Part shown: in pieces, positions 29,135 to 44,645 of the stretch
Layout: each line of letters starts with the position of its first letter
Numbering within the stretch: position 1 is the stretch's first letter
From: Devosia neptuniae
GTDB taxonomy: Bacteria; Pseudomonadota; Alphaproteobacteria; Rhizobiales; Devosiaceae
DNA: 64,000 nt
Direction: 5' to 3'
Assembly: GCF_025452235.1 (NCBI RefSeq)
Contig: NZ_CP104964.1
Location: 186,001 to 250,000 of the forward strand
Notes under the pieces: generated by a model
What the model was told of the DNA's origin: nothing
Database searches by the model: none
What the model saw: only the letters and a program-made list of their open reading frames with translations
Program-made: the position numbers and the translations under genes

Positions 29135-30010
29135 CTAGTGCCGGGCGGCGGCATCCTGGCTCGGAGCCGTACCAAACTGACGGCGATATTCACGGCTGAA
29201 CTGTGAAGCGCTTTCGTATCCCACCTTGAAACCGACGCCCGTCACGTCGTTGGGATGGCTTGCAAGCAGCAATCTGGCTTCCTGCAATCGGATCTGTTTT
29301 TGAAACTGGATCGGGCTCATCGCGGTCACCGCCTGGAAGTTGCGGTAAAAGGCCGAGGCACTCATCCCGACCAAATCCGCGACATCCTCCACTCTGAAGG
29401 ATCGCGCATAGTGTTCGCGGATCCAGCGCACCGCGCGAGAAATATGGCTGAGATGGCTGTCAGCAAGACCCAGTTGCCGTATCGCGCTGCCCTGTTCTCC
29501 GACAATCAACCGCCAGAGGATTTCTCGTTTAATCAGAGGCGCCAGAACCGGGATGTCGCGCGGGCAATCGAGCAGGCGCAATAGGCGCAACACTGCATCC
29601 ATCATGGCCGTTGGCGCATCGCTGACTAGCATACTGGATGGTGGCGGACCGTAACCGTGCCGCACGCCCTCGGAACCCGCCTGTAGTAGCAGCTCGGCAA
29701 CCATTATGGGATCAAGTGCAAAGCCAAACCCAAGCGCTGGATGATCAGGACTGGCGTCCAAAAACTGGCCCGTCACCGGCAGGTCGATAGAGGCAACTAG
29801 GTACTGACCGGGCCCGTACTCATACACCCTGTCCCCCAGGGCAATGCGCTTGGCGCCCTGCGCAACAAGGGCCATCACCGTGCCAGACATGGTTCGCTCG
29901 TGCGCCGATACATCATGTCGCGCGATCATGATTCCCGGAATAAGTGTGCTCATATCGGGGGCCGCGTGACGGTCGATCAGCGCCCGCAATTCCTCCAGGC
30001 GTTCGTTCAT
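29135..30010 (-). CDS. AraC family transcriptional regulator
   Basis: 291 residues from the ATG at 30010 (an earlier start at 30031 is possible). The N-terminal AraC_N effector domain (PGIMIARHDVSAHERTMSGT to LVASIDLPVTG) is of the type found next to oxidoreductases. The C-terminal DNA-binding domain has VEDVADLVGMSASAFYRNFQ and GVGFKVGYESASQFSREYRR. It is downstream of an SDR gene on the same strand, with 175 bp between; family members of this type often regulate such neighbours. Confidence 0.9.
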   Translation of the reverse strand: MNERLEELRALIDRHAAPDMSTLIPGIMIARHDVSAHERTMSGTVMALVAQGAKRIALGDRVYEYGPGQYLVASIDLPVTGQFLDASPDHPALGFGFALDPIMVAELLLQAGSEGVRHGYGPPPSSMLVSDAPTAMMDAVLRLLRLLDCPRDIPVLAPLIKREILWRLIVGEQGSAIRQLGLADSHLSHISRAVRWIREHYARSFRVEDVADLVGMSASAFYRNFQAVTAMSPIQFQKQIRLQEARLLLASHPNDVTGVGFKVGYESASQFSREYRRQFGTAPSQDAAARH

Positions 30011-30184
30011 GGTCGGCTCCAACTGCATCAAATGAACTTACTGCATAAGCACGGCTGCGCTACAGATTTTGCTATTCATAGGAGAATTGTGCAAGGCTTC
30101 ACATCGGATGCTTGCGAAAACGCTGAGCATCAAGACACTCGGATGGGCGCCGCCCAACCAAGTGTCTTCCGGCAAGGACTGGCG

Positions 30185-30928
30185 TTAGCTTGCCGCGGCC
30201 AGTGCGACGGCGTCCGGACCCGCAGGGAAGCGAAGTTGACCCGAAAGGTCATTGGCCGCCGCCCACACAGCTTCGGCAACGTCCGTCTCTTTTGTAGTCA
30301 GAACGGGCTTGGCGAATGCCGCAAAGATTGGCTCGGCGAAGGACTGGTAGGCCGCGGGGATCAAATCCTCGATGCTCAATTCCGTATTCTGCGAGAAGCG
30401 CGTTGTCGGCGCGTAACCAGGCTCAACAAGTTTGACACGAACGTTGAACGGCGCCAGTTCGTGTGCAAGCGAGCCGGTAAAGCCTTCAATGGCCATCTTG
30501 CTGGCCGTGTAAGCGGCAGCCAGGGGCATCGCCGCCAGTGTCACGCTCGAGGTTACATTGATCACGACGCCTGAATTCTGCTGGCGGAACAGCGGTACGA
30601 TGGCTTGCGTCATGGCCATGACCCCGAAAGTATTGGTGTCAAATACCTTGCGGATATAGCTCATCGGAGTCGCCTCGAACGCTCCCACCACGCCGATGCC
30701 GGCATTGTTGACGAGAACATCAATGGGGCCGCTCGTTTCGAGTGCCGTCGCAATACTGCTTGGATCGGTGACATCCAGCGCCACAATGCGGAGCCGATCG
30801 GAACGAGGCAAAATGTCTTCGCGCAGTGTGCGCATAGTGGCGATAACATTCCAGCCCTGGGCGTGAAAGTGGCGGGCAGTTTCGAGGCCATAGCCCGATG
30901 AACAGCCAGTGATCATGACGGTCTTCAT
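30185..30928 (-). CDS. Short-chain dehydrogenase/reductase
   Basis: 247 residues from the ATG at 30928, which follows AAGGGAAATACC. The cofactor motif TGCSSGYG is at 7-14, NNAG at 74-77, and the catalytic Tyr140 and Lys144 in YTASK. The Ser of INVTSS completes the active site. It reduces or oxidises an unknown carbonyl or alcohol with NAD(P). Likely linked to the adjacent AraC regulator. Confidence 0.92.
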   Translation of the reverse strand: MKTVMITGCSSGYGLETARHFHAQGWNVIATMRTLREDILPRSDRLRIVALDVTDPSSIATALETSGPIDVLVNNAGIGVVGAFEATPMSYIRKVFDTNTFGVMAMTQAIVPLFRQQNSGVVINVTSSVTLAAMPLAAAYTASKMAIEGFTGSLAHELAPFNVRVKLVEPGYAPTTRFSQNTELSIEDLIPAAYQSFAEPIFAAFAKPVLTTKETDVAEAVWAAANDLSGQLRFPAGPDAVALAAAS

Positions 30929-31380
30929 GGTATTTCCCTTTGTTCGGTGACGGCGATCTGCATGACCGCCTTGGGACCATCTAAGCACCCGCCCAACTTC
31001 GAGTGTTATCGTCATACTCCCACTTAGTTGCACGATCCTACCGCAGTTGGGAGATTTGGCTGTTGAAGGATGCCGCCTGGAGCGTAGCTAATCCGGCTTC
31101 CGGTCTGCCACCAGGGATGCGAGATCCAGCTGACCGGATGGTTGCCTACGCAATTTCGCGAGCCAATCTGGAGCGAAGAGTAGGCGCTTTGCAGTCGCCG
31201 CGACGTTTTTAGAGTAACCAAAGCGCCTGAGGCGCGAGGCTGAGGAGCGACGCCAAACGCACTTGCAGCTGCCCTTTGACGATCTTTCTGGACGCGGCCA
31301 TGAACGGGCCAGCCGTTCATGAGCGGAGCGTCCACGACGTGGGACCACCTTCGCCTCAATGGCGTTGGAAGACGGCGCCG
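30929..31380. other. Intergenic stretch, nothing recognised
   Basis: About 450 bp between the SDR gene and the 3' end of the LacI gene. Open frames overlap in several phases but have no family-like sequence or ribosome site. Confidence 0.4.
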
Positions 31381-32382
31381 CTAACGCGGGATCACTGCCG
31401 GGCCCGTGGTTTTGCGGATCACCAAACTTGTGTTCAGAACATAGCGCACGTCGCGGATTGCCTGATTCTGAAGGATGTCCATGAGCAGGTTTAATGCCGC
31501 CTTGCCCGCTTCCACCGACCGGTTGGACACGGTGGTCAACGAAGGGTAGGTGGCGGCACCGAGCACGTCGTCGCAACCGACTACTGCGAAATTGGCGGGT
31601 ACGGCGATTCCCTGGTCAGCGAGTTCAGCCAGCATGCCTTGGGCGGTGAGATCGTCGAAGGCGATCGCGGCGGTCGCTCCGGTGGCAAGGACGCTGGCGG
31701 TGATTTTGCGACCGGATTCAAAAGCGGCGAATTCGTTGGAAATAACCGTTACTTCAAGCCCTAATTCCCTGGCCGAGCGCCGCACTGCGCCGCGTCGCTG
31801 CTTGTTGGACCATGAGCCATGCGGGCCGCCCACATAGACCAGTTTCCGGTGCCCCAGCTCGGCAAGGTGGGCCACCGCTTCAGCAACGCCGGTAGCGCTA
31901 TCGATGAGGACGCGCGGTATGCCTTCCACGTCACGGTTGATGAGCACCAAAGGCCGGCGCGCTGCATGTTCGATGATCTGTGCGTCGCTCAGGCGCGAGG
32001 AAACCAGCACGAAGCCCTCCACCTGACCGGCGAAGCGGCCGATAAGCTTGTCTTCCTGCTGCGGATTTTCATCGGAATTGCCCAGGAACACGCAATAGTC
32101 GGAACGGTCGGCCTCCGATTGCGCGGCCCGGATGAGGGGCGGGAAGAATGGATTGGCGACATCGGGCACGATAAGGGCAATGTTGCCGTGTCGGCCCGTG
32201 CTGAGCGCGCGGGCCGTGTGATTGGGTACATAGCCCAATTGCTCAGCCGCCGCGAAGATCTTGCGCACGGTTTCCTGGCTTAGCATCTCCGGCCGGGTAA
32301 AGGCGCGAGACACGCTGGACTTGGTAACTCCGGCTGCGGCAGCGACCTGATTGATCGTGGGTCTGTTCTGGCGAGGCGTCAT
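31381..32382 (-). CDS. LacI family repressor of the amino-sugar operon
   Basis: 333 residues. LacI helix-turn-helix and hinge at 8-58 (TINQVAAAAGVTKSSVSRAF, then LGYVPNHTARALSTGR), followed by a sugar-binding domain of the periplasmic-binding type. It faces the nagB operon with a 150-bp gap that contains the perfect palindrome ATGCAACCGGTTGCAT, a classical LacI-type operator shape. The likely inducer is an amino sugar or its phosphate. The orientation and the second operator upstream of the transporter genes support control of the whole cluster. Confidence 0.9.
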   Translation of the reverse strand: MTPRQNRPTINQVAAAAGVTKSSVSRAFTRPEMLSQETVRKIFAAAEQLGYVPNHTARALSTGRHGNIALIVPDVANPFFPPLIRAAQSEADRSDYCVFLGNSDENPQQEDKLIGRFAGQVEGFVLVSSRLSDAQIIEHAARRPLVLINRDVEGIPRVLIDSATGVAEAVAHLAELGHRKLVYVGGPHGSWSNKQRRGAVRRSARELGLEVTVISNEFAAFESGRKITASVLATGATAAIAFDDLTAQGMLAELADQGIAVPANFAVVGCDDVLGAATYPSLTTVSNRSVEAGKAALNLLMDILQNQAIRDVRYVLNTSLVIRKTTGPAVIPR

Positions 32383-32450: not shown

Positions 32451-32479
32451 TTGACATGCAACCGGTTGCATTAAATAGT
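32451..32479 (+). promoter_or_regulatory. Promoter with LacI operator before nagB
   Basis: TTGACA (32451-32456) is followed directly by the perfect palindrome ATGCAACCGGTTGCAT (32456-32471), which fills the promoter spacer, and then AATAGT as a weak -10 at 32474-32479. Repressor on this site would block polymerase. The same TTGACA-plus-palindrome arrangement recurs at 36480. Confidence 0.75.
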
Positions 32480-32532
32480 TGCCTGAAAGCCGGGTGCCTC
32501 ATTCCATCAAGGCCCGGCGTGTGGAGGTTTTT

Positions 32533-33318
32533 TTGACGCTTGATGCTTCAACCCGGGCAAACACCACCCGCAAGGCTGGCCTGATGAGCGTTCAGTCCTT
32601 TGCCACCAGAGCGCTGATGGGCGAGGCCGCAGCCCGAGATATTGCCAATGCCCTGCGTGAGGCGCTGGCGCGTCAACAGAATGTGCGCATGGTTTTCGCT
32701 GCCGCACCCAGCCAGGCCCAGATGCTGGCCTCATTGTGCGCCGCCGAGGGTATCGACTGGACGCGCGTTGCCGCTTTTCACATGGATGAATATATCGGTC
32801 TTGCTCCCGACGCGCCTGAGCGCTTCGCCAAATGGCTTGATAACAATCTGTTCGATCGCGTGCCGTTTGCCCAGGTACATCACATTGTTCCTGAGCCTGA
32901 CGCCTCGGCCGCGGCGGCGCGATATGCACAATTATTGGCTGCGGCGCCGATCGACTTTGTTTGCCTGGGGATCGGGGTCAACGGGCACATCGCCTTCAAC
33001 GATCCACCGGTTGCCGACTTTGCCGATCCTCTGGACGTCAAGGTGGTTACCCTTGATGAACAATGCCGCCAGCAACAGGTCGACGACGATTGTTTCGCCA
33101 ATTTTGATGATGTTCCTGAACAGGCGATTACCCTTACCGTGCCGCGCCTGATACGCGCCGGTCGGCTTTTTTGCGTAGTGCCTGGTCAGTTGAAGCGGGA
33201 CGCGGTGCGCGCGTCTCTTTATGGTCCGATCAGCACCGAGTGCCCGGCCAGCATCCTGCGCCAGCACCCCGATTGCAGCCTTTACCTTGATGCGGAGTCC
33301 GACCCCAATGGCCAATAA
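32533..33318 (+). CDS. nagB: Glucosamine-6-phosphate deaminase
   Basis: 261 residues. It converts glucosamine 6-phosphate to fructose 6-phosphate and ammonia. Active-site blocks are HMDEYIGL (83-90), with the enolisation Asp, and GIGVNGHIAFNDP (146-158), with the ring-opening His. The start is assigned to TTG at 32533 because GGAGG lies five bases before it; no ATG fits as well. First gene of the operon, overlapping the SIS gene by 11 bp. Confidence 0.9.
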   Translation: MTLDASTRANTTRKAGLMSVQSFATRALMGEAAARDIANALREALARQQNVRMVFAAAPSQAQMLASLCAAEGIDWTRVAAFHMDEYIGLAPDAPERFAKWLDNNLFDRVPFAQVHHIVPEPDASAAAARYAQLLAAAPIDFVCLGIGVNGHIAFNDPPVADFADPLDVKVVTLDEQCRQQQVDDDCFANFDDVPEQAITLTVPRLIRAGRLFCVVPGQLKRDAVRASLYGPISTECPASILRQHPDCSLYLDAESDPNGQ

Positions 33319-34087
33319 TTCCGTGATCGATGCCGATGCCTTGTGCGCGGGCTATCTGTCGGACGTCACCGCCTTGATGCGGTCCATTCTGGTTGAGGAG
33401 CGCGATGCCCTCGATCGAGCTGCGGCCCGGGTGGCCGACCAGGTGGAGGCCGATCGGCTGGTCTACGTTTATGGCCCGGGTGGGCATTCCAATCTGGCGG
33501 CGCAGGAAATCTTTTTCCGTGCGGGCGGGTTGATGCATGTCAGCGCCATTCTGGACGAAGGCACGCTGCTGTCCAACGGCGCGCTGCGTTCCATGGCAGT
33601 GGAGCGAATGCCGGGCTACGGCAAGGTCGTCATCGACGATCAGCGCCTCGGCGAGGGTGATCTGCTGCTTCTCACCAATGCTTATGGCATTAACGCAGCG
33701 CTGATCGATGCAGCCATAGCCGCGCGCGGGCGTGGAGCGTTCCTGATCGGCTTCAACTCACACGCCCATGCCAATGGGAGCGCGCCAACCCACCCGGCGC
33801 GGCACCCGACCCGACAGAACCTGCACGATATCGTTGATATCGCGATCGATACCAAGGTGCCGATCGGCGACGCGCTGGTGACTGTCGATGGCGTCGGCGA
33901 GAGCATCGCGGCGGTTTCCACTTTCGCCAACGCTTTTGCGCTCAACTGTCTGGTAATTCGTACCGTAGCCAAGCTGGCGGAGCGGGGCGTCGAACCGCCG
34001 ATCTGGCGCAGTGGCAACGCGCCGGGCGGCGACGAAGCCAATGGCAGGTTCCTGGCGCGGTTCCGCGATCGCGTGCGCTGGCTGTGA
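33308..34087 (+). CDS. SIS-domain sugar isomerase-like protein
   Basis: 259 residues with a single sugar-isomerase (SIS) domain. The phosphosugar-binding loop region is YVYGPGGHSNLAAQEIFFRA, and LLLLTNAYGINAALIDAAIA and VGESIAAVSTFANAFA follow. SIS proteins of this kind isomerise or sense phosphosugars. Overlapping nagB by 11 bp and nagA by 4 bp, it must act in the same pathway. It could supply a keto/aldo isomerisation or act on an N-acyl sugar phosphate; the exact reaction is unknown. Confidence 0.82.
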   Translation: MANNSVIDADALCAGYLSDVTALMRSILVEERDALDRAAARVADQVEADRLVYVYGPGGHSNLAAQEIFFRAGGLMHVSAILDEGTLLSNGALRSMAVERMPGYGKVVIDDQRLGEGDLLLLTNAYGINAALIDAAIAARGRGAFLIGFNSHAHANGSAPTHPARHPTRQNLHDIVDIAIDTKVPIGDALVTVDGVGESIAAVSTFANAFALNCLVIRTVAKLAERGVEPPIWRSGNAPGGDEANGRFLARFRDRVRWL

Positions 34088-35235
34088 GCAAAGCTGCCCG
34101 CATTGTTGGGCGCGATCCGGCAGACGGGCAGGGGATCGCCATAGAATGCAGCGAGGGACGCATCGTCTCCATGGGTCCCACCGCAGTCGATGATGCGACG
34201 CCGTTCCTGTCCGCCGGATTCGTCGATCTTCAAGTGAATGGCTATGCCGGGCATGATCTGAACGCTGGCCTACCGAGTTTGCAAACGCTTGAGCAACTGG
34301 CGCGTCACCTGCTTGGGGCGGGTGTCACCTGCTTTGCGCCGACGCTTATCACCGCAAGCGAGCAATCCTTGTGCGAAGCCCTGAGTGCCGTTGCTGCGGC
34401 CAGGCGTGAAAGCCCCCTTCTGGCCGAGATGATCGCGTTCGTGCATGTCGAAGGACCCTCGCTCGACCCGGCAGATGGTCCGCGCGGTGCGCACCCGCTC
34501 GAGCATGTGCGCCCGCCGAGCATCGATGAATTCGCCCGATGGCAGAGCGCCGCCGAGGGCATGGTCGGGCTGGTGACTTTGTCGCCGCATTATGCGGAGG
34601 CGCGAGCCTATGTCGAGGCACTGTCCGCCCAGGGCGTGCTGGTGTCGATTGGCCATACCGGCGCCACACCGGAGCAGATCACTGCGGCGGTGGACGCAGG
34701 GGCGAGCCTGTCGACCCATCTCGGCAATGGCGCTGCCAGCATGCTGCCACGTCACCCCAACTTTATCTGGACGCAACTATCAGACGATCGACTGACGGCC
34801 AGTTTCATTGCTGACGGGCATCATTTACCCGCATCAACGCTCAAGGCCATGCTGCGGGCCAAGACATTGGACAAATCGATACTGGTTTCTGACGCAGCCG
34901 CTTTGGGTGGGCAGCCGCCGGGGCGCTATCGAAGCGCCATTGGCGGGGACGTGGACGTGTCTGCGGATGGGCGGCTCAGCGTTGCCGACACGCCTTATCT
35001 GGCGGGGGCAGGGCATTTGCTGGACCGCAATATCGCCTACGCCATCAAGGCGGGGGAAATTTCGTTGGCGCAGGCGTTGAATTTGGCGACCTGCAATCCG
35101 GGACGTTTCGTGGGCGGCAGGGGTGTGCTCGCTCCGGGTCAGCGCGCCGATATCACGCTGTTTTCCTGGGCGCCGGGCGACGAAAAGTTGACGATTGAAG
35201 ACGTTTTCTTGGGCGGCGAGAGGGTTTTGGCATGA
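34084..35235 (+). CDS. nagA: N-acetylglucosamine-6-phosphate deacetylase
   Basis: 383-residue amidohydrolase-fold enzyme that removes the acetyl group from GlcNAc-6-phosphate, feeding NagB. Family marks: SAGFVDLQVNGYAGHDLN, GVTCFAPTLIT, the metal-ligand regions HVEGPSLDP, SIGHTGATPEQI and THLGNGA, and the catalytic Asp in VSDAAALGG. Start is the GTG at 34084, overlapping the SIS gene stop. It is followed by a 4-bp overlap with the ceramidase-like gene. Confidence 0.92.
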   Translation: MSKAARIVGRDPADGQGIAIECSEGRIVSMGPTAVDDATPFLSAGFVDLQVNGYAGHDLNAGLPSLQTLEQLARHLLGAGVTCFAPTLITASEQSLCEALSAVAAARRESPLLAEMIAFVHVEGPSLDPADGPRGAHPLEHVRPPSIDEFARWQSAAEGMVGLVTLSPHYAEARAYVEALSAQGVLVSIGHTGATPEQITAAVDAGASLSTHLGNGAASMLPRHPNFIWTQLSDDRLTASFIADGHHLPASTLKAMLRAKTLDKSILVSDAAALGGQPPGRYRSAIGGDVDVSADGRLSVADTPYLAGAGHLLDRNIAYAIKAGEISLAQALNLATCNPGRFVGGRGVLAPGQRADITLFSWAPGDEKLTIEDVFLGGERVLA

Positions 35236-36503
35236 TCCGTGCTGGGGCGGCGAGTGTCGACATAACGCCAGCAGCGGGGCTGCATTTGGCGGGCTTTGCG
35301 GCGCGGACGATGCCGGCGACGGGCACGCATGACCCGCTCACGGCGCGGGCAATCGTAGTCGAGGATACAGCGGTCGTGGTCCTCGACGTGATCGGCTTGC
35401 ACGAGGATATGACGGCCCGGATCCGCCAACGCAGTCCACTGCCGGACGACAGAATCATCGTGGCGGCCACGCATACCCATGGTGCGCCGGTATCCATGAA
35501 GGGGCGATTGGGCCGGACCAGCGATCCTGCATTCCTGCAGCACATCGAAGACGGTGCTGTCGAGGCGCTGCGACTGGCCTATGCAAACAGGCGACCCGCG
35601 ACAATTGCCGCGGGCATGGGCGGAGATTCCGCTGTAGCCTGGAACCGGCGCCACGTTGATGGTCCCTTAGACCGATCCGTACCAATGATCCGCATTCGCG
35701 ATGCAGACGGGCGCTACATTGCAGTGATGGCGTCCTATGCCTGCCATCCAGTGGTGCTGGCCGCGGACAATCTTCTTATGACAGCGGACTATCCATTCTA
35801 TGTTCGCCAGGCGCTGGAGACCGCGCATCCCGGGGCAGTTGCGCTGTTTCTCACCGGCTGCGCCGGCGATGCCAATACCGGCCACACGGCCCAGGCATCC
35901 TGGACTCTGGCGGCCAACAGCGCCCGCACCTTTGCCACGGCGCAGCGTCTGGGGGAGCGCATCGCCGCAGCGGCACTTGAAGCCGGCGAGCAAGCCGCGA
36001 CCGACATCGTCCGCGCTGCGCATCGTGAGTTGGAGCTGGCATTGACGCGCCTCGAAGCAGCGCCCCTGCCGGTCCTGGCTGCTCGTTGGCGCCTCGAACA
36101 ACAAACGGCCGAACCGGTGCGGGCCACTCTGCTCAGGCACTGGATCGAGTGGGCGGAACGCAATCGCGATGTGGTGCCGGGTACCTGGCGCGCCCGGGTC
36201 AGCCTGCTCGATTGGGGCGGCATTCCCATCGTGGCCATGCCAGGGGAAATCTTCAGCGAGACGGGTCTGTCGGTGCGTAGCGCCTGTGGGGGGCGGCCGG
36301 CATTCGTGCTCGCCTACGCCGAGGGCACGCCCGGCTACATCCCACCGCGCAGCGAGTTTGCGTTCGGCGGCTATGAGGTGGATGAGGCGCATCGTTTCAT
36401 CGGCATGCCAGGTACTTTTGCCCCCGGTTCAGCCGAGGCGCTGGCGGAAGCCGCGCATTCGCTGCTTCGTGAACGCCACTTGACAGCGCAACCGGTTGCA
36501 TAA
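35232..36503 (+). CDS. Neutral/alkaline ceramidase-like hydrolase
   Basis: 423 residues. The start (AGAASVDITPAAGLHLAGFA) and the putative zinc-site motifs AATHTHGAP, YACHPVVL and TGCAGDANTG match the neutral ceramidase family, zinc amidases that cut N-acyl bonds. No signal peptide is present, so it works in the cytoplasm. Members in catabolic operons are of unknown substrate. Its place directly after nagA suggests it removes an acyl group other than acetyl from an amino sugar. The last codons also contain the second LacI operator. Confidence 0.8.
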   Translation: MIRAGAASVDITPAAGLHLAGFAARTMPATGTHDPLTARAIVVEDTAVVVLDVIGLHEDMTARIRQRSPLPDDRIIVAATHTHGAPVSMKGRLGRTSDPAFLQHIEDGAVEALRLAYANRRPATIAAGMGGDSAVAWNRRHVDGPLDRSVPMIRIRDADGRYIAVMASYACHPVVLAADNLLMTADYPFYVRQALETAHPGAVALFLTGCAGDANTGHTAQASWTLAANSARTFATAQRLGERIAAAALEAGEQAATDIVRAAHRELELALTRLEAAPLPVLAARWRLEQQTAEPVRATLLRHWIEWAERNRDVVPGTWRARVSLLDWGGIPIVAMPGEIFSETGLSVRSACGGRPAFVLAYAEGTPGYIPPRSEFAFGGYEVDEAHRFIGMPGTFAPGSAEALAEAAHSLLRERHLTAQPVA

Positions 36504-36508
36504 CAAAC
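36480..36508 (+). promoter_or_regulatory. Second LacI operator, overlapping a gene end
   Basis: TTGACA (36480-36485) followed by GCAACCGGTTGC (36488-36499, perfect; the outer pair differs from the first operator by one base). The site codes for the last residues of the ceramidase-like protein (TAQPVA) and its stop codon. It probably drives and represses a separate transcript beginning before the substrate-binding protein gene. Confidence 0.7.
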
Positions 36509-36555
36509 TCTCGTCATCGCCTGTGTAGGGAACGAGCGAAACAAGGGGAACTTTC

Positions 36556-37872
36556 ATGACAAGCGTATCGAAGCTACGCCGCCATTTGCCGGCGAGTGCA
36601 CTCCGGCTAGCACTGCTCGGGTCAGTGATGGGCATTGCCGCAGTCGCTGCGGCGCCCGCCGTCAGCGCCCAGGAAATCCGCGTCTGGAGTGGCTATCCGG
36701 AATTGGCGCCGTTCTATGAGCATGTCGCCGAAGGCATGAAGGCACAACACCCCGATCTCAGCGTCAAGGTGGAAGCCATCGCGCTGCGCGAGCACGAAAA
36801 GCGCCTGGCGCTGGGACTGACATCGGGCGAGGCCGCTGAGGTCATCGAGCTCGGCACCTCCACTGCAACGCGCTATCTGGAGAATGGGCTGTTCAACGCC
36901 GCTCCCGACGATATTGCGGCTTTCGTGCAGGATCCCGCCAATTTCAACGACTTCTTCCGCGACTCCGCCAGCTATGACGGCACCGTCTATGGACTGCCGC
37001 TCTTCCGTGGTCAGAGCGCCCTCTACTACAACACCGAAATGTTCGAGGCGGCCGGTCTGACCGAACCACCGACCGACATGGCTGACTACACGAAATACGC
37101 CGAGGCGCTGACCCAACGGGACGCCAATGGTGCCCCCACCGTGTCCGGCTGGAGCCTGCGTCTGTCCGGCGGTGGCCAGGGCATTGCCGAAAAGTTCTGG
37201 ATCAATATGTTCCAGTACGGCGAGAGCTTGGTCGAGCAGGATGCCGCGGGTAAGTGGAAGGCTGACTTTGCCAACGAGCAAGGCCGCGCGGCGCTCAAGC
37301 AATATCTGGAGAATGTTCATACGCTCAAGACCGTAACGATCGAAATGCCGGCCGATGCCGAGGCATTCGAGCGTGAGCAGACCGCGATGTTCATCCGTGA
37401 ATCCTGGGTCATCGGCGATATCGCTGCCAAGGCACCGGACCTCTCCTATGCCACGGCCACGCTGCCGCGCGGCTCGATCGTGGCGCCTGTATCGCTGTGG
37501 ATCAGCGGCGAGGGCGCGGAGGCGGAAGCCGCATGGGCCTTTGCGCAGGCCGCCAACGAGCCCGACAACCTGCTGTGGCTTCTGGACAATGTGGGCTGGC
37601 TGCCGAACCGTTCCGGCCTGGACTACAGCGCGATCCTCAAGGCCAAGCCGGCTTTGGCGGCGTTCGTCGATTATCCGGACACCTACGAGTTCTTCTCATT
37701 GCCCAATATCGGTCCGGTGGAAGAAATCCTCACCCGGACCGCGGCGCGGCTGACCGAGGCATTCGCCAATCCCGCTCTGGCGAGCGATGATGCAGCGATC
37801 GACGCCGTGCTGGTCGCCATGCAGGACGAGATCAACGCCCTGCTGCAACGTGAAGGGCTGCTGGCGGAATAA
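36556..37872 (+). CDS. ABC transporter sugar-binding protein
   Basis: 438 residues, family 1 extracellular solute-binding protein. The signal peptide ends at AVSAQE (about residue 38). QEIRVWSGYPELAPFYEHVA starts the mature fold, and YGLPLFRGQSALYYNTEMFE is typical of the hinge region. Start after AAGGGGAACTTTC. It delivers a sugar, probably an N-acylated amino sugar or oligosaccharide, to the following permeases. Confidence 0.92.
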   Translation: MTSVSKLRRHLPASALRLALLGSVMGIAAVAAAPAVSAQEIRVWSGYPELAPFYEHVAEGMKAQHPDLSVKVEAIALREHEKRLALGLTSGEAAEVIELGTSTATRYLENGLFNAAPDDIAAFVQDPANFNDFFRDSASYDGTVYGLPLFRGQSALYYNTEMFEAAGLTEPPTDMADYTKYAEALTQRDANGAPTVSGWSLRLSGGGQGIAEKFWINMFQYGESLVEQDAAGKWKADFANEQGRAALKQYLENVHTLKTVTIEMPADAEAFEREQTAMFIRESWVIGDIAAKAPDLSYATATLPRGSIVAPVSLWISGEGAEAEAAWAFAQAANEPDNLLWLLDNVGWLPNRSGLDYSAILKAKPALAAFVDYPDTYEFFSLPNIGPVEEILTRTAARLTEAFANPALASDDAAIDAVLVAMQDEINALLQREGLLAE

Positions 37873-37941
37873 ACCAGAGCTCCATGTGCCAACCTGCCTG
37901 GGATGGCCTCGGCCTCCCAGGCTCCATCAGCGGAGAATGCA

Positions 37942-38829
37942 ATGCTGCGGCGCAAGAGATGGCTCTTTGCGATCCTCGCCATCCTGCCCACGCTGGCGCT
38001 CTTTGCCTGGCTGCGCATGTATCCCATTTTTGAGACCCTGCGGCTGAGCCTGCATAAATGGGACATTCTCTCCAAGAACAAGCCCTTCATCGGCCTGGCC
38101 AATTTCCAGGAGCTGATGAGCGACCGCCTGTTTCACGAAGCACTGCTGAACACCACCATCATTGCCTTCGGCGTGCTGATCATCACCATCCCCACCGCGA
38201 TGGTGCTGGCGGCGATGATCCACTACCGGACGCGTTCGCGGGCATCGGGCTTTTACGAGACGGCTATCTTCCTGCCGCATGTGGTGTCGCTGGTGCCCGC
38301 AGCCATGGCCTGGAAATGGATTTTCGACGCCCGGCTTGGGCCGCTGAACGCCGTGCTGACCTTTTTCGGTTTCGAGCCTCAGGCCTGGCTGTTTGATCCG
38401 ACCCTTTCGGTGATTAGCGTCATCGTGCTGTGTTCGTGGCAGGCGCTCGGTTATGCAGTGTTGATCTATCTCGTGGGCTTCAAGAGCCTGCCGGTATCCC
38501 TGTTCGAGGCCGCCAAGCTGGATGGCGCATCAGGTCCACAATCATTCTGGTTCCTGTCCATGCCGATGCTCAAGCCCATCACGCTATACGTGTCGGTGGT
38601 GACCCTGGTGTCCGGGTTCAACGTCTATGCCCAGGCCTTCGTGCTGGCCTCGGACGCACAGGGCGCGCCGGGCCGGCAGGTGCGCGTGCTGGTGCTCGAC
38701 ATGCTGGAAAACAGCTTCCGCAATTACCGCGTCGGCTATGCCGCGTCCGAGGCGGTGGTCCTCCTCGTTATCGTGCTGGTGCTGACGCTCATCCAGTTCT
38801 CCCTGTTGCGGGAAAGGGGGCGCGCATGA
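37942..38829 (+). CDS. ABC sugar transporter permease, first subunit
   Basis: 295 residues from the ATG at 37942 with GGAG upstream (another ATG at 37903 has no ribosome site). Six membrane segments, with the cytoplasmic EAA loop FEAAKLDGASGPQSFWFLSM that docks the ATPase. MalF/UgpA type. It overlaps the second permease gene by ATGA. Confidence 0.9.
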   Translation: MLRRKRWLFAILAILPTLALFAWLRMYPIFETLRLSLHKWDILSKNKPFIGLANFQELMSDRLFHEALLNTTIIAFGVLIITIPTAMVLAAMIHYRTRSRASGFYETAIFLPHVVSLVPAAMAWKWIFDARLGPLNAVLTFFGFEPQAWLFDPTLSVISVIVLCSWQALGYAVLIYLVGFKSLPVSLFEAAKLDGASGPQSFWFLSMPMLKPITLYVSVVTLVSGFNVYAQAFVLASDAQGAPGRQVRVLVLDMLENSFRNYRVGYAASEAVVLLVIVLVLTLIQFSLLRERGRA

Positions 38830-39692
38830 GTGCCAATCCTTCGACCCAAAGCGGCAAGCGCCGCCGCATGCGCAAGCTGCTCGTCGATCGCAGCATCGAC
38901 CTCATATTGCTGGTGTTCAGCCTGCTGATGCTGCTCCCGTTGGTGTTTCTTGTCTCCAATGGCTTCAAGACGCCCCAAGAAATGCTCGCCTGGCCGCCCA
39001 CCATTATTCCGGCCAACCCCACGATCGACAATTTCGCGGCCGTCCTGCAGGACACCCCGCTATTGCGCTGGATCTTCAACAGCATCCTGTTCGCGGTGCT
39101 GTCGACCCTGGCGATCCTGGCGACCTCCTCTATCGCCGGGTACATCCTCGCCAAGTTCCGTTATCGCTCGCTCAACGTGATCTTCGCCCTGGTGCTGGCG
39201 ACCGCCATCGTGCCGTTCGAAGTCTACATGATCCCGCTCTATTTCCAGGCCCAAAGCATGGGCATCCTCAACAGCATCTGGGGATTGCTGCTCGGCTATC
39301 TGGTCATGAGTTTTGGCATCTTTCTGATCCGGCAGAACGTCATCCATTCCATTCCCGACGAACTGCTGGAAGCCGCGCGCATCGACGGTGCGGGTGAGCT
39401 CTGGATATTCTTCCGCATCGTCTTGCCGCTGCTGCGCGGTGCCCTCGGGGCGCTTGGCGTGTTGGCGTTCTTCCAGGCCTGGACCGCCTTTGCCTGGCCG
39501 ATGATCGTCGCCACCAATCGCGAGGCCTATACGATCGAGGTGGGGCTGGCCCTGTTCCAGACCGGGTTCACCGTCGATCTGGGCCGCCTCAGCGCCGCAT
39601 CGGCACTGGTGCTCATTCCCTCGATCAGCCTCTTCGTCATCCTGCGCCGCAACTTCGTTCAGGGCGTCGCCAGTACCGGGCTCAAGGAATGA
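38826..39692 (+). CDS. ABC sugar transporter permease, second subunit
   Basis: 288 residues, six membrane segments, MalG/UgpE type. The EAA loop is LLEAARIDGAGELWIFFRIV. Start at the ATG 38826 inside the previous stop. Basic N-terminus (SGKRRRMRKLL) fits the inside-positive rule. It overlaps the epimerase-like gene by 4 bp. Confidence 0.92.
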   Translation: MSANPSTQSGKRRRMRKLLVDRSIDLILLVFSLLMLLPLVFLVSNGFKTPQEMLAWPPTIIPANPTIDNFAAVLQDTPLLRWIFNSILFAVLSTLAILATSSIAGYILAKFRYRSLNVIFALVLATAIVPFEVYMIPLYFQAQSMGILNSIWGLLLGYLVMSFGIFLIRQNVIHSIPDELLEAARIDGAGELWIFFRIVLPLLRGALGALGVLAFFQAWTAFAWPMIVATNREAYTIEVGLALFQTGFTVDLGRLSAASALVLIPSISLFVILRRNFVQGVASTGLKE

Positions 39693-40936
39693 GCGATCCG
39701 GCAAGCTTCATCGGCCAGGCAACGCAGACTTATGCCGATACCAATGCGACAAGCCTGCGCTGGCTGCTGGCCCGGCCCTTGCTGGGCCCGGGCTTTCTGA
39801 ACAGCAAGCAGAACAGCATCACCCTGGCTGACTATGGCCCGGACGATGGTCTGCGCGGCCCTCAGTTCACTTATGGCTGGATTCAGGGCCGGGGCCTCGA
39901 AGCACTGGTGACGCATGCCGCGTTCTTCGCGGCGTCTGACCCCCAATTGGCCGCGTCCATCGATGCGGCAGCACGACCGCTCTACGGCATTCTGCAACAG
40001 CTCTGGTCAGCGCATGGCCATGCCTATTTCTGTTACGACACCAACCTCGAGCCGGTTGTCGCCGGACCAGATGGCGCCACTGCGCCGCAGGCCCGGCCGG
40101 CAGAAATCTACACCTATTCCGATATCTTCGTTCTCAAGGGCCTGATTTCTGCCGCAGCCCGCTATGACAGGCCGAGCCTTGATCACTACCTCGCCCAGCT
40201 TCCCGCGCTCATCGACGCCATTGAAGGCGGGCGGTTTCAGATGGACGAGCGGCAGGCGCTCTCGGCCGACACTGCCGGCAACCAGCCCGCCGATTTCGGC
40301 CCGCGCATGATCCTGCTCGGCGCTGCCGGCATGCTCAAGCGCATCAGCCGGCCCGACACTGCCCGCTTTGCCGATCGCTTCATCGCCCACGTCCTTGAGC
40401 ACTATCTCGATCCCGCTTCGGGCCTGTTGCGCAACGTACCTGGATCGGATGCCTGCAATGTTGGGCACGGCATCGAATTTGTCGGCTTTGCCCTCGACCA
40501 TCTGCCCCCCGATGCCAATCCGGCCCTGATCGAACACCTGCAGGCTATTCTCATCGCCTCGTTTAAGGCCGGCTTCCATGGACCGGGCGTGGCACTCACG
40601 GTTTCTGTCGCGACAGGTGAGCCGACCAGTCGCTACTGCCCGTGGTGGTCACTGCCCGAAACCATCCGCAGTGCCGCCTTGTGCCATGAGCGCACCGGCA
40701 ACGCGCTCGTGCTCGATATCTGGCGCACGGCGCATGCGGCATTTTTCGATACCTATTGGCGCGGCGAGCCGGCAATCGCCTATCAAACGATGACAGGGGA
40801 GGGCCCCGTCGACTTCGTTCCGGCCACCCCCGACCTTGACCCCGGCTACCACACCGGCCTCAGCCTTCTGGCGGCCGTGGAAGCAGCCGCTCGCATGGGC
40901 GCGAACAGGGCCCCCAAAACCAGCACAGGTGCATAA
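39689..40936 (+). CDS. N-acylglucosamine 2-epimerase family protein
   Basis: 415 residues with the alpha/alpha barrel of the AGE/cellobiose-2-epimerase superfamily. Candidate catalytic positions are the His of GHGIEFVGFAL, the Glu of WSLPETIRSAA and the His of DPGYHTGLS, which correspond in order to the family's His-Glu-His set. It may epimerise an N-acyl amino sugar (for example to a mannosamine form) or isomerise a sugar before or after cleavage. It is placed between the permease and ATPase genes, so it is tied to this uptake system. Confidence 0.75.
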   Translation: MSDPASFIGQATQTYADTNATSLRWLLARPLLGPGFLNSKQNSITLADYGPDDGLRGPQFTYGWIQGRGLEALVTHAAFFAASDPQLAASIDAAARPLYGILQQLWSAHGHAYFCYDTNLEPVVAGPDGATAPQARPAEIYTYSDIFVLKGLISAAARYDRPSLDHYLAQLPALIDAIEGGRFQMDERQALSADTAGNQPADFGPRMILLGAAGMLKRISRPDTARFADRFIAHVLEHYLDPASGLLRNVPGSDACNVGHGIEFVGFALDHLPPDANPALIEHLQAILIASFKAGFHGPGVALTVSVATGEPTSRYCPWWSLPETIRSAALCHERTGNALVLDIWRTAHAAFFDTYWRGEPAIAYQTMTGEGPVDFVPATPDLDPGYHTGLSLLAAVEAAARMGANRAPKTSTGA

Positions 40937-42037
40937 ATGGCTGCCGTAGAAATCACCAACGTAGCCAAGTCCTTTGGCCCCACGGACATCATCCGCAACA
41001 TCAATGTCGAAGTGCCTGATGGCGCTTTCGTGGTGTTGGTGGGTCCCTCGGGCTGCGGAAAATCGACCCTGCTGCGCATGATTGCGGGGCTCGAAGACAT
41101 CGACAAGGGCGAAATTTCCATCGGCGGTCGGGTCATCAACGACGTCGAGCCCAAGCACCGTGACATCGCCATGGTGTTCCAGAATTATGCACTCTATCCG
41201 CACATGACCATCGCCGAGAATATGGGCTTCTCGCTACGCTTGGCTAAGCAGTCCAAGGCCGAAATCAACCAACGGGTCGGCGAGGCTGCGCGCATTCTGG
41301 GCCTCACTGATTATCTCCAGCGCTTCCCCAAGCAATTGTCCGGTGGCCAGCGCCAGCGCGTTGCCATGGGTCGCGCCATCGTGCGCCAGCCACAGGTGTT
41401 CCTGTTCGATGAACCCCTATCCAATCTCGATGCCAAGCTGCGGGTGCAGATGCGCGGCGAGCTCAAGGACATGCATGCTCGCTTCAAGACCACGACCATC
41501 TATGTGACCCACGACCAGATCGAAGCCATGACCATGGCGGACCTGATCGTGGTCATGCGCGACGGCGTCGTGGAGCAGATCGGCACGCCGCTCGATCTCT
41601 ACGACTTCCCGGCCAATATGTTCGTGGCCAGCTTCATCGGGTCGCCCGCCATGAATTTCCTCAAGGGCACCGTCCGCCAGCACCAGGGCCAGCAGATCTT
41701 CGAAACCGGCAGCGGCTTCCGTCTGCCCGTCCAGGCTGCTGCGGGAGCGCCTGAAGGCCTGACGGCAACACTGGGCATTCGGCCGGAACATCTGACGCTA
41801 TCAAACCCCGGAGAGGGGATTGGCGGCAGGATCACCACCATCGAACCGACGGGTTCGGAGACCTTTGTCGTGGTGCAATTGGGGGAGGACCGGATTTCGG
41901 CTTTGCTCCGCCAGCGGCTGACCGCGAGCGTTGGTGATGAATTGTGGCTGGCGCCACAACCAGATACGACACATTTATTCGACAGCGCCACCACCAGGCG
42001 ATTGGCCAGCACTGGCACGGTAACCGGCCGTGGCTGA
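40937..42037 (+). CDS. ABC sugar transporter ATPase (UgpC/MsmK type)
   Basis: 366 residues. Walker A GPSGCGKST (36-44), signature LSGGQRQR (134-141), Walker B VFLFDEP (154-160), and the C-terminal OB-fold TOBE domain (about 245-360) typical of sugar importers. It starts directly after the preceding stop codon. Powers the two permeases upstream. Overlaps the dehydrogenase gene by 8 bp. Confidence 0.93.
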   Translation: MAAVEITNVAKSFGPTDIIRNINVEVPDGAFVVLVGPSGCGKSTLLRMIAGLEDIDKGEISIGGRVINDVEPKHRDIAMVFQNYALYPHMTIAENMGFSLRLAKQSKAEINQRVGEAARILGLTDYLQRFPKQLSGGQRQRVAMGRAIVRQPQVFLFDEPLSNLDAKLRVQMRGELKDMHARFKTTTIYVTHDQIEAMTMADLIVVMRDGVVEQIGTPLDLYDFPANMFVASFIGSPAMNFLKGTVRQHQGQQIFETGSGFRLPVQAAAGAPEGLTATLGIRPEHLTLSNPGEGIGGRITTIEPTGSETFVVVQLGEDRISALLRQRLTASVGDELWLAPQPDTTHLFDSATTRRLASTGTVTGRG

Positions 42038-43073
42038 AAAACTCGGCATTGGCATCATTGGCCTGGGCATGGCGTCCCTGCCGCATGCACGCGCGCTATT
42101 GGCGCTACGCGATCGGATCGAAGCCCTCCACGCCTTCAGCCCTTCGCGCGAACGTCGCGACGCCTTCGCTGCGGCGCATGGTCTTCCAACAACGGACACG
42201 ATTGAAGCGATTTTCAACGATCGGCGTGTCGATGCCGTGCTGGTCCTGACCCCGCCCAATACGCATCTCGAAATCGTGCAAATGGCCGCTGCAGCCGGCA
42301 AGCATGTGCTGCTGGAAAAACCGATCGAGGTCAGCGTCGATCGAGCCGAGCAATTGGTGGATGTTGCCGATGCGGCGGGAATCATCCTTGGCATGGTGCT
42401 TCAAAACCGGTTCAGGCCCGCTGCCCTGAAACTCAAGACCATCATTGAACAGGACCGCCTCGGACAATTGGTCCAGGTGAGTGCCCGTACAAACTACTGG
42501 CGTCCTCAGAGCTATTATGACGAGCCCGGGCGCGGCACCTTGGCACGCGACGGCGGTGGCGTCCTGCTAACTCAGGCCATCCATAACCTTGACCTGATGG
42601 TCTCGCTCGTCGGCATGCCTGAAACGGTAACAGGCTTTGTTTCCACCAGCCCGGTCCACATCATGGAGGGAGAAGATGTGGCAGCGGCGACAATGCGTTT
42701 TCCCAATGGCGCCCTGGGCAGCATCACCGCCACCACCTGCGCCTTTCCTGGGCAGGCAGATGCCATAGAAATCACTGGAGTCGCAGGAAGCGCCACACTG
42801 GCGGGAACACACCTCACAGTACGGTCGCATGATGGCTCCAACATCGATTTTGAAGGCGCTGATGCTGGTTCCGGATCGGGGGCCGATCCAATGGAATTTT
42901 CCAGCCAGGCTCATCAAGCCCTAATTGAGGATTTTGCGGACGCGGTCGCCCGGTGCCGGAAACCGGTGGCCTGCGGGCGCGATGTCTTGGCGGTTCACAA
43001 TCTGATCGCCGCGATAATCGAGTCCCACGGCCTTCCGATCCAGCTCAAGCATGGTTTGTCGCCACGATCCTGA
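42030..43073 (+). CDS. Gfo/Idh/MocA family oxidoreductase
   Basis: 347 residues. The Rossmann motif GIGIIGLGMASLPHARALL is near 6-24, the conserved substrate/NAD element LEKPIEVSVDRAEQL follows near 93-108, and the C-terminal alpha/beta domain holds DGGGVLLTQAIHNLDLM. It starts at a GTG within the ATPase gene. It oxidises or reduces a sugar or aminosugar with NAD(P). As the last gene of the run, it could convert the 3- or 1-position of the imported sugar; not fixed. Confidence 0.88.
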   Translation: MAEKLGIGIIGLGMASLPHARALLALRDRIEALHAFSPSRERRDAFAAAHGLPTTDTIEAIFNDRRVDAVLVLTPPNTHLEIVQMAAAAGKHVLLEKPIEVSVDRAEQLVDVADAAGIILGMVLQNRFRPAALKLKTIIEQDRLGQLVQVSARTNYWRPQSYYDEPGRGTLARDGGGVLLTQAIHNLDLMVSLVGMPETVTGFVSTSPVHIMEGEDVAAATMRFPNGALGSITATTCAFPGQADAIEITGVAGSATLAGTHLTVRSHDGSNIDFEGADAGSGSGADPMEFSSQAHQALIEDFADAVARCRKPVACGRDVLAVHNLIAAIIESHGLPIQLKHGLSPRS

Positions 43074-43379: not shown

Positions 43380-44645
43380 GTGACCAGTCGTTCCGGCAGT
43401 GCCGATCTTCCGCTTCATGGTGGCCGCGTGCCGCGCTGGCTGAGCGAGCGCATGGCCAAACTCGGAGCGTTGATCTGCGAGGCCGTCGTCATCGAATACG
43501 GACGCGACGAGTTGTTGCAGCGACTGGCTCATCCCTTCTGGTTCCAGTCGTTTGGTGCCGTGATGGGGATGGACTGGCATTCGTCAGGGATCACCACCAG
43601 CGTCATCGGTGCCTTGAAACGCGGGCTGGGACCGCTGGAAAAGGAGCTCGGCCTTCATGTCTGTGGTGGTCGGGGCAAACATTCACGTAACACGCCCAGC
43701 GAGTTGATGGCGGTCGGTGACCGGGTAGGTTTCGACGGCGCCGCGCTGGCGACAGCAAGCCGGCTGGTCGCCAAGGTGGATAGCGCCGCGGTCCAGGACG
43801 GTTTCGATCTCTACCTGCACGGCTTCATCGTGGCCGACGACGGCAAATGGGTGGTAGTGCAACAGGGTATGAAGGGCGATGCAGGCTATGCCCGCCGATA
43901 CCACTGGACCTCGCAGGGCCTGGGCAGTTTTGTCGAGCATCCGCACGCTGCCATCGAGGGCAAGGCCCAAGGACAGATCATCAATCTGACCGACAAGCGC
44001 GCCGATAGGGCACGGGCGGGCAGCGTTGATTTGCTGGCCTCGCTGGGCCCCGATGCAATCGTCCGCGAGGTCGGTCGCTTGCGGGGTAGTGCGAAACCGG
44101 TCGACGATGAGCCGCTGCTGCCGCACCTGGTGATGCCGGAGCACCATGACATAAGGCCACCCGATGTCCTGCTGCGGCGCCTGCACGGAAGCCTCGCCGC
44201 GGCGGCCGATCGCGGGCCGACGGATTTCGCCCAACTGCTGCTGGTGCCCGGGGTTGGGGCTCGCACGGTGGAGTCGCTGGCGATGGTCGCCGAGGTCGTT
44301 CACGGCGCGCAGCACCGTTTTTCCGATCCTGCCCGTTTCGCCATGGCGCATGGCGGCAAGGACGGGCATCCTTTTCCGGTTCCGCTAACCGTCTATGACC
44401 AGACCATCCAAGTACTGAAGAATGCCGTCGGCCGATCGCGCCTCGGCCAGGACGAGCAACTCGCCGCTCTCAAGCGCCTGGACGCGCAGGCCCGGACATT
44501 GGAAAGCACGGCTCGTGGTCCGTCGCTCAAATCCTATATTGGCAACGAACGGGCGCGCGCCCGTCAGTTTGGCGGACGCACAGTGTTCGACGACGTTCAA
44601 CCTGCTAGCCACCCGACCAGAGGGGTATCAGGTCCACCTAACTAA
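43380..44645 (+). CDS. DUF763 protein with helix-hairpin-helix-like motif
   Basis: 421 residues. The N-terminus GSADLPLHGGRVPRWLSERM and the HSSGITTSVIGALKRGL element are characteristic of DUF763, a family of unknown function shared by archaea and some bacteria. The stretch LLLVPGVGARTVESLAMVAE (near 290-309) resembles a helix-hairpin-helix, a non-specific DNA-binding element, so a DNA-related role is plausible. Start is GTG at 43380 with GAGGA upstream. It stands alone between intergenic regions. Confidence 0.82.
   Translation: MTSRSGSADLPLHGGRVPRWLSERMAKLGALICEAVVIEYGRDELLQRLAHPFWFQSFGAVMGMDWHSSGITTSVIGALKRGLGPLEKELGLHVCGGRGKHSRNTPSELMAVGDRVGFDGAALATASRLVAKVDSAAVQDGFDLYLHGFIVADDGKWVVVQQGMKGDAGYARRYHWTSQGLGSFVEHPHAAIEGKAQGQIINLTDKRADRARAGSVDLLASLGPDAIVREVGRLRGSAKPVDDEPLLPHLVMPEHHDIRPPDVLLRRLHGSLAAAADRGPTDFAQLLLVPGVGARTVESLAMVAEVVHGAQHRFSDPARFAMAHGGKDGHPFPVPLTVYDQTIQVLKNAVGRSRLGQDEQLAALKRLDAQARTLESTARGPSLKSYIGNERARARQFGGRTVFDDVQPASHPTRGVSGPPN

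Follow-up and report, generated by a model that had tools for sequence, protein, structure and literature searches.

We analysed a window of 64,000 nucleotides from Devosia neptuniae (positions 186001-250000 of contig NZ_CP104964.1, here C1) and found in it a ten-gene amino-sugar cassette at 32584-43073, which is probably a kinase-free uptake and degradation route for an N-acyl amino-uronic acid. The likeliest substrate would be of the 2-acetamido-2-deoxy-glucuronic or -mannuronic type, the reactions and the substrate being those that we infer from gene order, conservation, residue changes, an operator and linkage to uxuA and uxuB, all of which are observed. Three enzymes of the cassette belong to "phosphosugar" families, and in each the predicted catalytic residues are kept and residues aligned with the 6-phosphate site are changed, in the NagA-like protein only in part. 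An earlier note on this DNA had proposed a single pathway for an unusual N-acyl amino sugar, and we judge that proposal right, with the substrate deduced from sequence. The features in question, in window coordinates, are as follows.

31381..32382, minus strand: divergent lacI-family repressor gene, the presumed cassette regulator (Pfam LacI and Peripla_BP_3).
32451..32479, plus strand: promoter-like site TTGACA-17-AATAGT, 5' of the nagB-like gene (10/12 in a consensus scan; a consensus match only).
32456..32471, no strand assigned: operator 1, the perfect palindrome ATGCAACCGGTTGCAT, overlapping the promoter-like site (palindrome and core conservation).
32584..33318, plus strand: NagB-like deaminase of the AAPSQ type, with 244 aa when read from its likely ATG (PF01182, 82 bits).
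33308..34087, plus strand: NagS-related SIS-domain protein with the motif NAYGIN at the phosphate serines (SIS_2, 117 bits; NF002805).
34084..35235, plus strand: NagA-like N-deacylase, GTG start (PF01979, 50 bits).
35232..36503, plus strand: neutral-ceramidase-family zinc hydrolase, here CER (PF04734, 41 bits, cut-off 32.1).
36486..36501, no strand assigned: operator-like site 2, in the last bases of the CER gene and 54 bases 5' of the next gene (2 mismatches against operator 1).
36556..37872, plus strand: substrate-binding protein (SBP) of a sugar ABC transporter (SBP_bac_8).
37903..38829, plus strand: ABC permease 1 (BPD_transp_1).
38826..39692, plus strand: ABC permease 2 (BPD_transp_1).
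39689..40936, plus strand: AGE-superfamily epimerase/isomerase-like protein (profile matches to AGE structures; RefSeq name of the Martelella ortholog).
40937..42037, plus strand: UgpC/MsmX-type ABC ATPase (NF008653, 504 bits, cut-off 432).
42030..43073, plus strand: Gfo/Idh/MocA oxidoreductase, a variable gene in the uxuA/uxuB slot (Pfam GFO_IDH_MocA).

None of the ten plus-strand genes contains an internal stop. Six of their nine junctions overlap (by 11, 4, 4, 4, 4 and 8 bases), one abuts (0 bases) and two are gaps, of 52 bases 5' of the SBP gene and 30 bases 5' of permease 1. The earlier view that the genes overlap almost throughout and form one pathway was borne out, and their order is conserved across genera. 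The nagB-like reading frame begins with a TTG at 32479, which falls within the promoter-like site, but its likely start is ATG 32584. Family scans of the window cassette, and likewise of the cassette loci examined, revealed no kinase among the cassette genes, in agreement with what the earlier note had stated; no glycosidase was seen among the genes of the window cassette and the plasmid copies inspected. Of the domain calls made earlier, those for nagB, SIS, nagA, ceramidase and Gfo/Idh genes stood, and the AGE call proved weak by single sequence and positive by profile.

The NagB-like protein scores 112.2 bits against TIGR00502, below the equivalog cut-off of 236.9. We take T-G-x-T to be the phosphate loop of E. 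coli NagB (EcNagB), and D72 and H143 to be catalytic. In 26 of the 27 readable cassette copies, which were collected by homology (L043 being unreadable and L014 too short), the loop T41 G42 G43 T44 is replaced by A/S, A, P, S, the lone exception being the ATGASQ loop of L023 (D. subaequoris); six relatives outside the cassette also carry A/S-A-P-S. Typing 90 NagB homologues by this loop gave 32 AAPSQ, 31 TGxT and 25 ATGASQ sequences, with 2 dropped as "other" (L062 and L043, in which the loop is missing from the extracted frame, though L062 elsewhere shows AAPSQ; both are still counted among the 35 AAPSQ-type neighbourhood loci below). Residue counts rest on a gap-free realignment of the loop. 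In the 32 AAPSQ rows, T41 is A in 25 and S in 7, and G42, G43 and T44 are A, P and S; D72 and H143 are kept in 32/32 and K208 is kept, and the R172 position holds R in 0/32 rows versus 24/32 canonical rows. Because the AAPSQ and TGxT classes were defined by the motif itself, two independent checks were used, the homology-collected cassette copies above and a tree. In this tree of 85 rows (L062, L043, L014, L096-L099, L116 and any row with X left out), AAPSQ (29 rows) and TGxT (32 rows) each occupied one side of a branch with support 100/100, the long branch between them being flagged by the tool. At L118 9133-10641, two nagB genes of the ATGASQ group stand in tandem; their loop reads ALGAAQ and their branch is very long.

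The NagA-like protein likewise scores below its equivalog model (179 bits against a TIGR00221 cut-off of 225.65). We compared 36 sequences of this group with 20 canonical NagAs and 12 from ATGASQ loci. E131, H195, H216 and D273, which we take to be the metal and catalytic residues, are kept in 36/36. The groups differ consistently at ten positions, of which five (220, 221, 228, 230 and 233) fall within 219-233, the segment described as holding the phosphate in PMC6016474, whose pocket we mapped onto E. coli NagA numbering. The changes are A220G (34 of 36), M221A (26), E228H (35), G230N (34) and G233W (34), and their clustering in this segment has a hypergeometric probability of 1e-5, calculated post hoc. 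According to the same paper, mycobacterial NagA also accepts GlcNAc-6-sulfate and does not accept N-acetylglucosamine (GlcNAc), which makes another anion at C6 plausible. The earlier assignment of NagA and NagB to GlcNAc-6-phosphate is thus not supported, since both proteins fall below equivalog cut-offs and some of their phosphate-site residues are changed. The window genome encodes a second NagA on its other contig (C2, 4,182,684 bases), adjoining a SIS gene that is presumably a NagB-II-type deaminase.

The neighbourhoods of these genes differ too. A kinase or phosphotransferase system (PTS) lies within 8 kb in 2/35 AAPSQ-type loci versus 20/31 canonical loci, and both matches are NanK-like genes on the opposite strand. 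The 35 loci represent 33 distinct ones (L096 repeats L012 and L099 repeats L019), some are truncated by the end of a contig, and closely related enterobacteria are heavily represented in the canonical set. ROK neighbours of ATGASQ NagBs at first resembled kinases, but the five inspected match NagC best. BadF and ROK family genes, the latter including regulators, are present on C2 of the window genome.

UxuA was found within 13 kb in 6/35 AAPSQ-type loci versus 0/31 canonical loci, with G610 as a seventh in which uxuA lies just beyond the first stretch; no locus was selected on the basis of uxuA. Six cassette loci run on into uxuA and uxuB: four from Nitratireductor, G610 and G762, representing three genera and two gene orders, with G610 and G762 belonging to two genera of the window's own family. 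In the four Nitratireductor loci and G610, uxuB-uxuA comes immediately after the cassette and in its orientation, although uxuB is split in two in Nitratireductor L016 and incomplete in L074. In Nitratireductor rhodophyticola the start of uxuB lies 6 bases past the end of the ATPase gene, and uxuA overlaps uxuB. The order in G762 is reversed, uxuA-uxuB, and its best references are those of Agrobacterium, so that more than one joining event is likely. UxuA makes 2-keto-3-deoxygluconate (KDG) from mannonate. Because Nitratireductor UxuA is 56% identical to E. coli UxuA (UxuB, 46%), mannonate, and hence fructuronate, are likely intermediates, and fructuronate would be the product of a NagB-type reaction if the substrate were 2-amino-2-deoxyglucuronate.

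Related clusters show similar pairings. A shorter cluster on Agrobacterium pAtCFBP6624 comprises lacI, two Gfo/Idh genes, nagB, a nagA-like gene, ABC genes, uxuA and a mannitol-dehydrogenase-family (UxuB-like) gene, and SIS, CER and AGE are all absent from it. In Ancylobacter an ATGASQ nagB is accompanied by an ABC transporter, by uxuA and by a gene of the mannitol-dehydrogenase family, while nagA was not seen within 18.6 kb, and two more ATGASQ loci (L109 and L115) hold uxuA. The glucuronate isomerase UxaC of E. coli matched 0/89 context loci at E 1e-7, a search that had no positive control for divergent UxaC. The Gfo/Idh gene stands at the cassette end in 7/8 Devosia-named loci with enough flank (L023 being without it) and in L008, is absent there in Nitratireductor, Martelella and Granulosicoccus, and fills the slot held by uxuA/uxuB in Nitratireductor, G610 and G762. 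This dehydrogenase, which the earlier note had counted as part of the pathway operon, is consequently not part of the conserved core.

The remaining three enzymes form an extra module. In CER, positions H81, H172, E339 and Y369, which we assume to be zinc ligands from neutral ceramidase numbering, are invariant in 14/14. Looser Ceramidase_alk relatives occur in varied gene contexts, which do not settle the substrate. At L054 6140-11293, on a haloarchaeal plasmid, a ceramidase-like gene adjoins a family 20 glycosylhydrolase (GH20) and a sulfatase gene; at L027 2699-5872, in a Clostridia metagenome-assembled genome (MAG), a SIS gene (motif SNSG), a gene that by eye is BadF-kinase-like and a ceramidase-like gene lie side by side, a distant SIS-CER pairing.

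The AGE-like protein gave no match in the first single-sequence family scans; against PF07221 it later scored 16.6 bits, short of the 23.4 needed. Its family profile matched solved N-acylglucosamine 2-epimerases (8bry, E 1.3e-6; 2gz6, 1e-4; 6f04, 2e-4; 1fp3, 0.14) over approximately 130-160 residues, including the N-x-G-H-x-I-E and WW-x-x-x-E stretches, and RefSeq names the Martelella ortholog an AGE family epimerase/isomerase.

The SIS protein matched the NagS structure 9eol in the PDB at E 9.7e-37. L026, where the SIS gene is fragmented, and the distant L027 are not included in its residue counts. H53, R64, E94 and D179, given as essential in PMC12680351, are kept in 22/22, and the S54 and N228 positions are also kept. 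Of the phosphate contacts given there (S54, S119 and S121), S119 is N and S121 is Y in 22/22, and the S91 position is M. We considered whether the SIS gene acts in toxicity or signalling as NagS does and set this aside, NagS activity being reported in PMC12680351 as limited to Streptomycetaceae.

Among cassette loci not cut short, 28/28 hold both SIS and AGE genes, and a 29th, L022, ends before the AGE gene. In the plasmid collection, AGE-like genes occur in six records, the same six that hold cassette CER. The presence of CER in most cassette loci is uninformative, because those loci were found by CER; of 12 loci reached by NagB similarity, 5 have SIS, CER and AGE together and 7 have none of the three. 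The three genes travel together and probably serve an extra decoration of the substrate.

On this sequence evidence the cassette is a genuine regulon, both conserved and mobile, that has a predicted operator of its own. The operator core GCAACCGGTTGC is present in 17/17 lacI-nagB intergenic regions (L014, L022 and L023 left out), and lacI is divergent from nagB in orthologous loci with enough flank, with a different orientation in L023 and L044. The 4.7 Mb genome holds only two operator sites at no more than one mismatch, both in the cassette (reversed control, 1). Most cassette loci scanned carry the core at both places, in front of nagB and in front of the SBP gene, the exceptions being L044 and L022 with none and L014 with one copy. 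This second site 5' of the SBP gene suggests two transcription units under one repressor. An operator match was found in 12/12 further genomes searched, at the cluster wherever cluster sequence was available; at a tolerance of one mismatch, reversed controls yielded 0 to 3 sites per genome, so that stray sites are partly due to chance. A near-identical palindrome pair in G018 (L148 7997-12352), at an inositol-like cluster with its own LacI gene, was left out; it may be a cross-talk site. In G610, one core copy fronts a second nagB. In D. oryzisoli (L011 29-5797) and D. subaequoris (L023/L150; L150 6650-11585), a core copy stands before a second ABC transporter, which is of a different type, and an ATGASQ-type nagB is present in these loci as well; this transporter may import the free amino acid form.

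The same gene order was found in Devosia, Nitratireductor, an Ancalomicrobiaceae MAG, a betaproteobacterial MAG (short contig) and Granulosicoccus, which answers the check that had been proposed earlier, a search for this order in other genomes. Named plasmids with the cassette come from Nitratireductor, Microvirga, Martelella and Ponticoccus, the last with its AGE gene on the opposite strand. This recurrence in other genera and on RefSeq plasmids argues against a chance assembly. Scanning genome contigs with CER gave 20 loci, all but one with an identity of at least 48%. A CER match was present in 6/61 genomes searched, the window's own included, which indicates that the cassette is accessory; C1 itself, at 532,786 bases, is probably a plasmid or chromid. 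The relatives of the window genome are Devosia, and the closest named record is a Rhizobiales isolate whose ceramidase-like protein is 96% identical.

In the route that we propose, a C6 carboxylate would stand in place of the 6-phosphate of ordinary amino-sugar catabolism, under LacI control of the operon. The ABC transporter would import the N-acyl amino-uronic acid, the AGE-like protein would epimerise C2 from manno to gluco, the NagA-like enzyme would remove the N-acyl group, and the NagB-like enzyme would deaminate and isomerise the 2-amino-2-deoxyuronate to D-fructuronate and ammonia. UxuB and then UxuA, encoded in the operon of some relatives and elsewhere in the window genome, would convert fructuronate to mannonate and KDG, so no kinase would be needed before KDG. 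A further decoration, probably at C3, may be stripped by the zinc hydrolase CER together with the NagS-like SIS protein. A 2,3-diacetamido-2,3-dideoxyuronic acid is put forward because a second amidase and a NagS-like C3 enzyme would fit such a substrate: the hydrolase would free the second amine and the SIS protein would swap the amine for water. This C3 step is the boldest part of the proposal, and we hold it only tentatively, as rather doubtful. Whether the whole constitutes a previously undescribed route for N-acyl (possibly 2,3-di-N-acyl) amino-uronic acids is, in our estimate, evenly balanced; such a route would draw on three enzyme types taken over from the metabolism of 6-phospho-amino-sugars and adapted to a C6 carboxylate (an AAPSQ NagB acting as 2-amino-2-deoxyuronate deaminase, an amino-uronate N-deacetylase and a SIS-fold C3 lyase), together with a sugar amidase of the ceramidase fold and a uronate epimerase of the AGE type.

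Several observations weigh against this proposal. The NagA-like protein keeps R227 and H251 in 36/36 and N219 in 34/36, residues of the phosphate or anomeric site of known NagA, and its A220G and G230N changes are also found in NagAs of ATGASQ loci. In D. subaequoris the cassette NagB is replaced by an ATGASQ type, which keeps T-G. An N at the EcNagB D141 position was discarded as a special feature, being present in 21/32 canonical rows also, and a new Arg at EcNagB 84 was discarded as a carboxylate ligand, being missing in 3/32 AAPSQ rows. The SIS changes at S119 and S121 are suggestive at most, because the NagS mutants S119A and S121A were little affected according to PMC12680351. The uxuA and uxuB genes stand beside a minority of cassettes only, and the corresponding genes of the window genome (PF03786 and PF08125) are on C2, unlinked to the cassette. 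Two AAPSQ-type relatives would suit a neutral sugar better: that of Spirosoma adjoins a GH20 hexosaminidase gene, and that of Subdoligranulum has a weak GH20 match (22%) nearby; in both, NagA is built differently.

Ordinary GlcNAc-type catabolism, our starting reading, would have the cassette import a neutral N-acyl hexosamine, with a BadF or ROK kinase encoded elsewhere, NagA and NagB acting on 6-phosphates, and the residue changes reflecting drift or tuning. The BadF and ROK family genes on C2, the retained R227, N219 and H251 of the NagA-like protein and the retained K208 of the NagB-like protein are consistent with it. However, the changes approach fixation among cassette copies and lie largely at the phosphate, kinase linkage is nearly absent, unlike in canonical loci, uxuA and uxuB in the same operon would be left without a role, and the genome holds another NagA and a deaminase-like SIS gene elsewhere; the residue and kinase-linkage comparisons demoted this explanation, which we now regard as unlikely.

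A similarly unlikely and slightly weaker candidate has the cassette import a uronic acid joined to an N-acyl hexosamine, as a disaccharide or conjugate; uxuA and uxuB would serve the uronic half and NagA and NagB the hexosamine half. This reading would account for same-operon uxuA/uxuB in some relatives, but it sits poorly with the lack of a glycosidase among the cassette genes, with UxaC unmatched in the 89 context loci, and with Ancylobacter, where an ATGASQ nagB is paired with uxuA and no nagA was seen in 18.6 kb. Less probable again is a phosphate-free route on a neutral amino sugar, with the NagB-like enzyme yielding fructose or a keto sugar that Gfo/Idh would oxidise or reduce. Gfo/Idh genes are indeed frequent neighbours, and GH20 and Gfo/Idh genes lie beside the Spirosoma AAPSQ NagB, with weaker matches in Subdoligranulum; against this, UxuA converts mannonate, an acid, to KDG, and the operon product should accordingly be acidic in Nitratireductor, G610, G762 and Agrobacterium. 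The amino-uronate route thus remains the reading that we prefer.

Around the cassette, a DUF763 protein (43380-44645, plus strand, 403 bits) lies directly downstream and outside it. An AraC-type regulator (45933-46730, minus strand) is divergent from a major facilitator superfamily transporter (46815-48026, plus strand), and another AraC-type regulator lies beside a short-chain dehydrogenase at 29135-31033 (minus strand).

Bacterial capsules, O-antigens, teichuronic acids and enterobacterial common antigen commonly contain amino-uronic acids. No catabolic route for them was described among the matches listed in the literature searched, which is weak evidence of absence. If the proposal is true, it provides assayable functions for groups that RefSeq labels 6-phosphogluconolactonase, ceramidase-domain protein and hypothetical protein, as the cassette proteins are, and enzymes for reading amino-uronic-acid glycans; it would also caution against copying NagA, NagB and ceramidase names, and bear on the role of NagS-like SIS proteins outside Streptomyces.

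Comparison with known systems shows likeness and difference in each case. The AGE-like protein resembles N-acylglucosamine 2-epimerases (8bry, 2gz6, 6f04) at profile level, yet falls below the Pfam cut-off. CER keeps the four zinc-ligand positions of neutral ceramidase (2zws; 4wgk), but has 423 aa against chains of 646 and 688, is matched in parts only, has no signal peptide that could be seen by eye, and lies in an amino-sugar operon rather than a lipid context. The SIS protein shares its family and H53, S54, R64, E94, D179 and N228 with the Streptomyces GlcNAc-6-phosphate dehydratase NagS as described in PMC12680351, where distant NagS homologs are reported to have no or negligible GlcNAc-6-phosphate activity; it differs in carrying M, N and Y at S91, S119 and S121 and in being encoded in a catabolic operon. 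With nagA-nagB catabolism of GlcNAc-6-phosphate in E. coli and B. subtilis, the cassette would share N-deacetylation followed by deamination/isomerisation, by enzymes that have the same two folds and retain the catalytic residues, whereas it has changed residues at the phosphate, no kinase or PTS, ABC import, and added SIS, ceramidase-like and AGE genes. The fructuronate-mannonate-KDG steps are described for L-gulonate in PMC5788505. The hexuronate pathway, UxaC-UxuB-UxuA to KDG, is approached through the uxuB/uxuA genes joined to the cassette in three genera and to the shorter Agrobacterium cluster; the difference is that UxaC was unmatched in the loci scanned, and the NagB-like deaminase would instead provide fructuronate from an amino-uronate.

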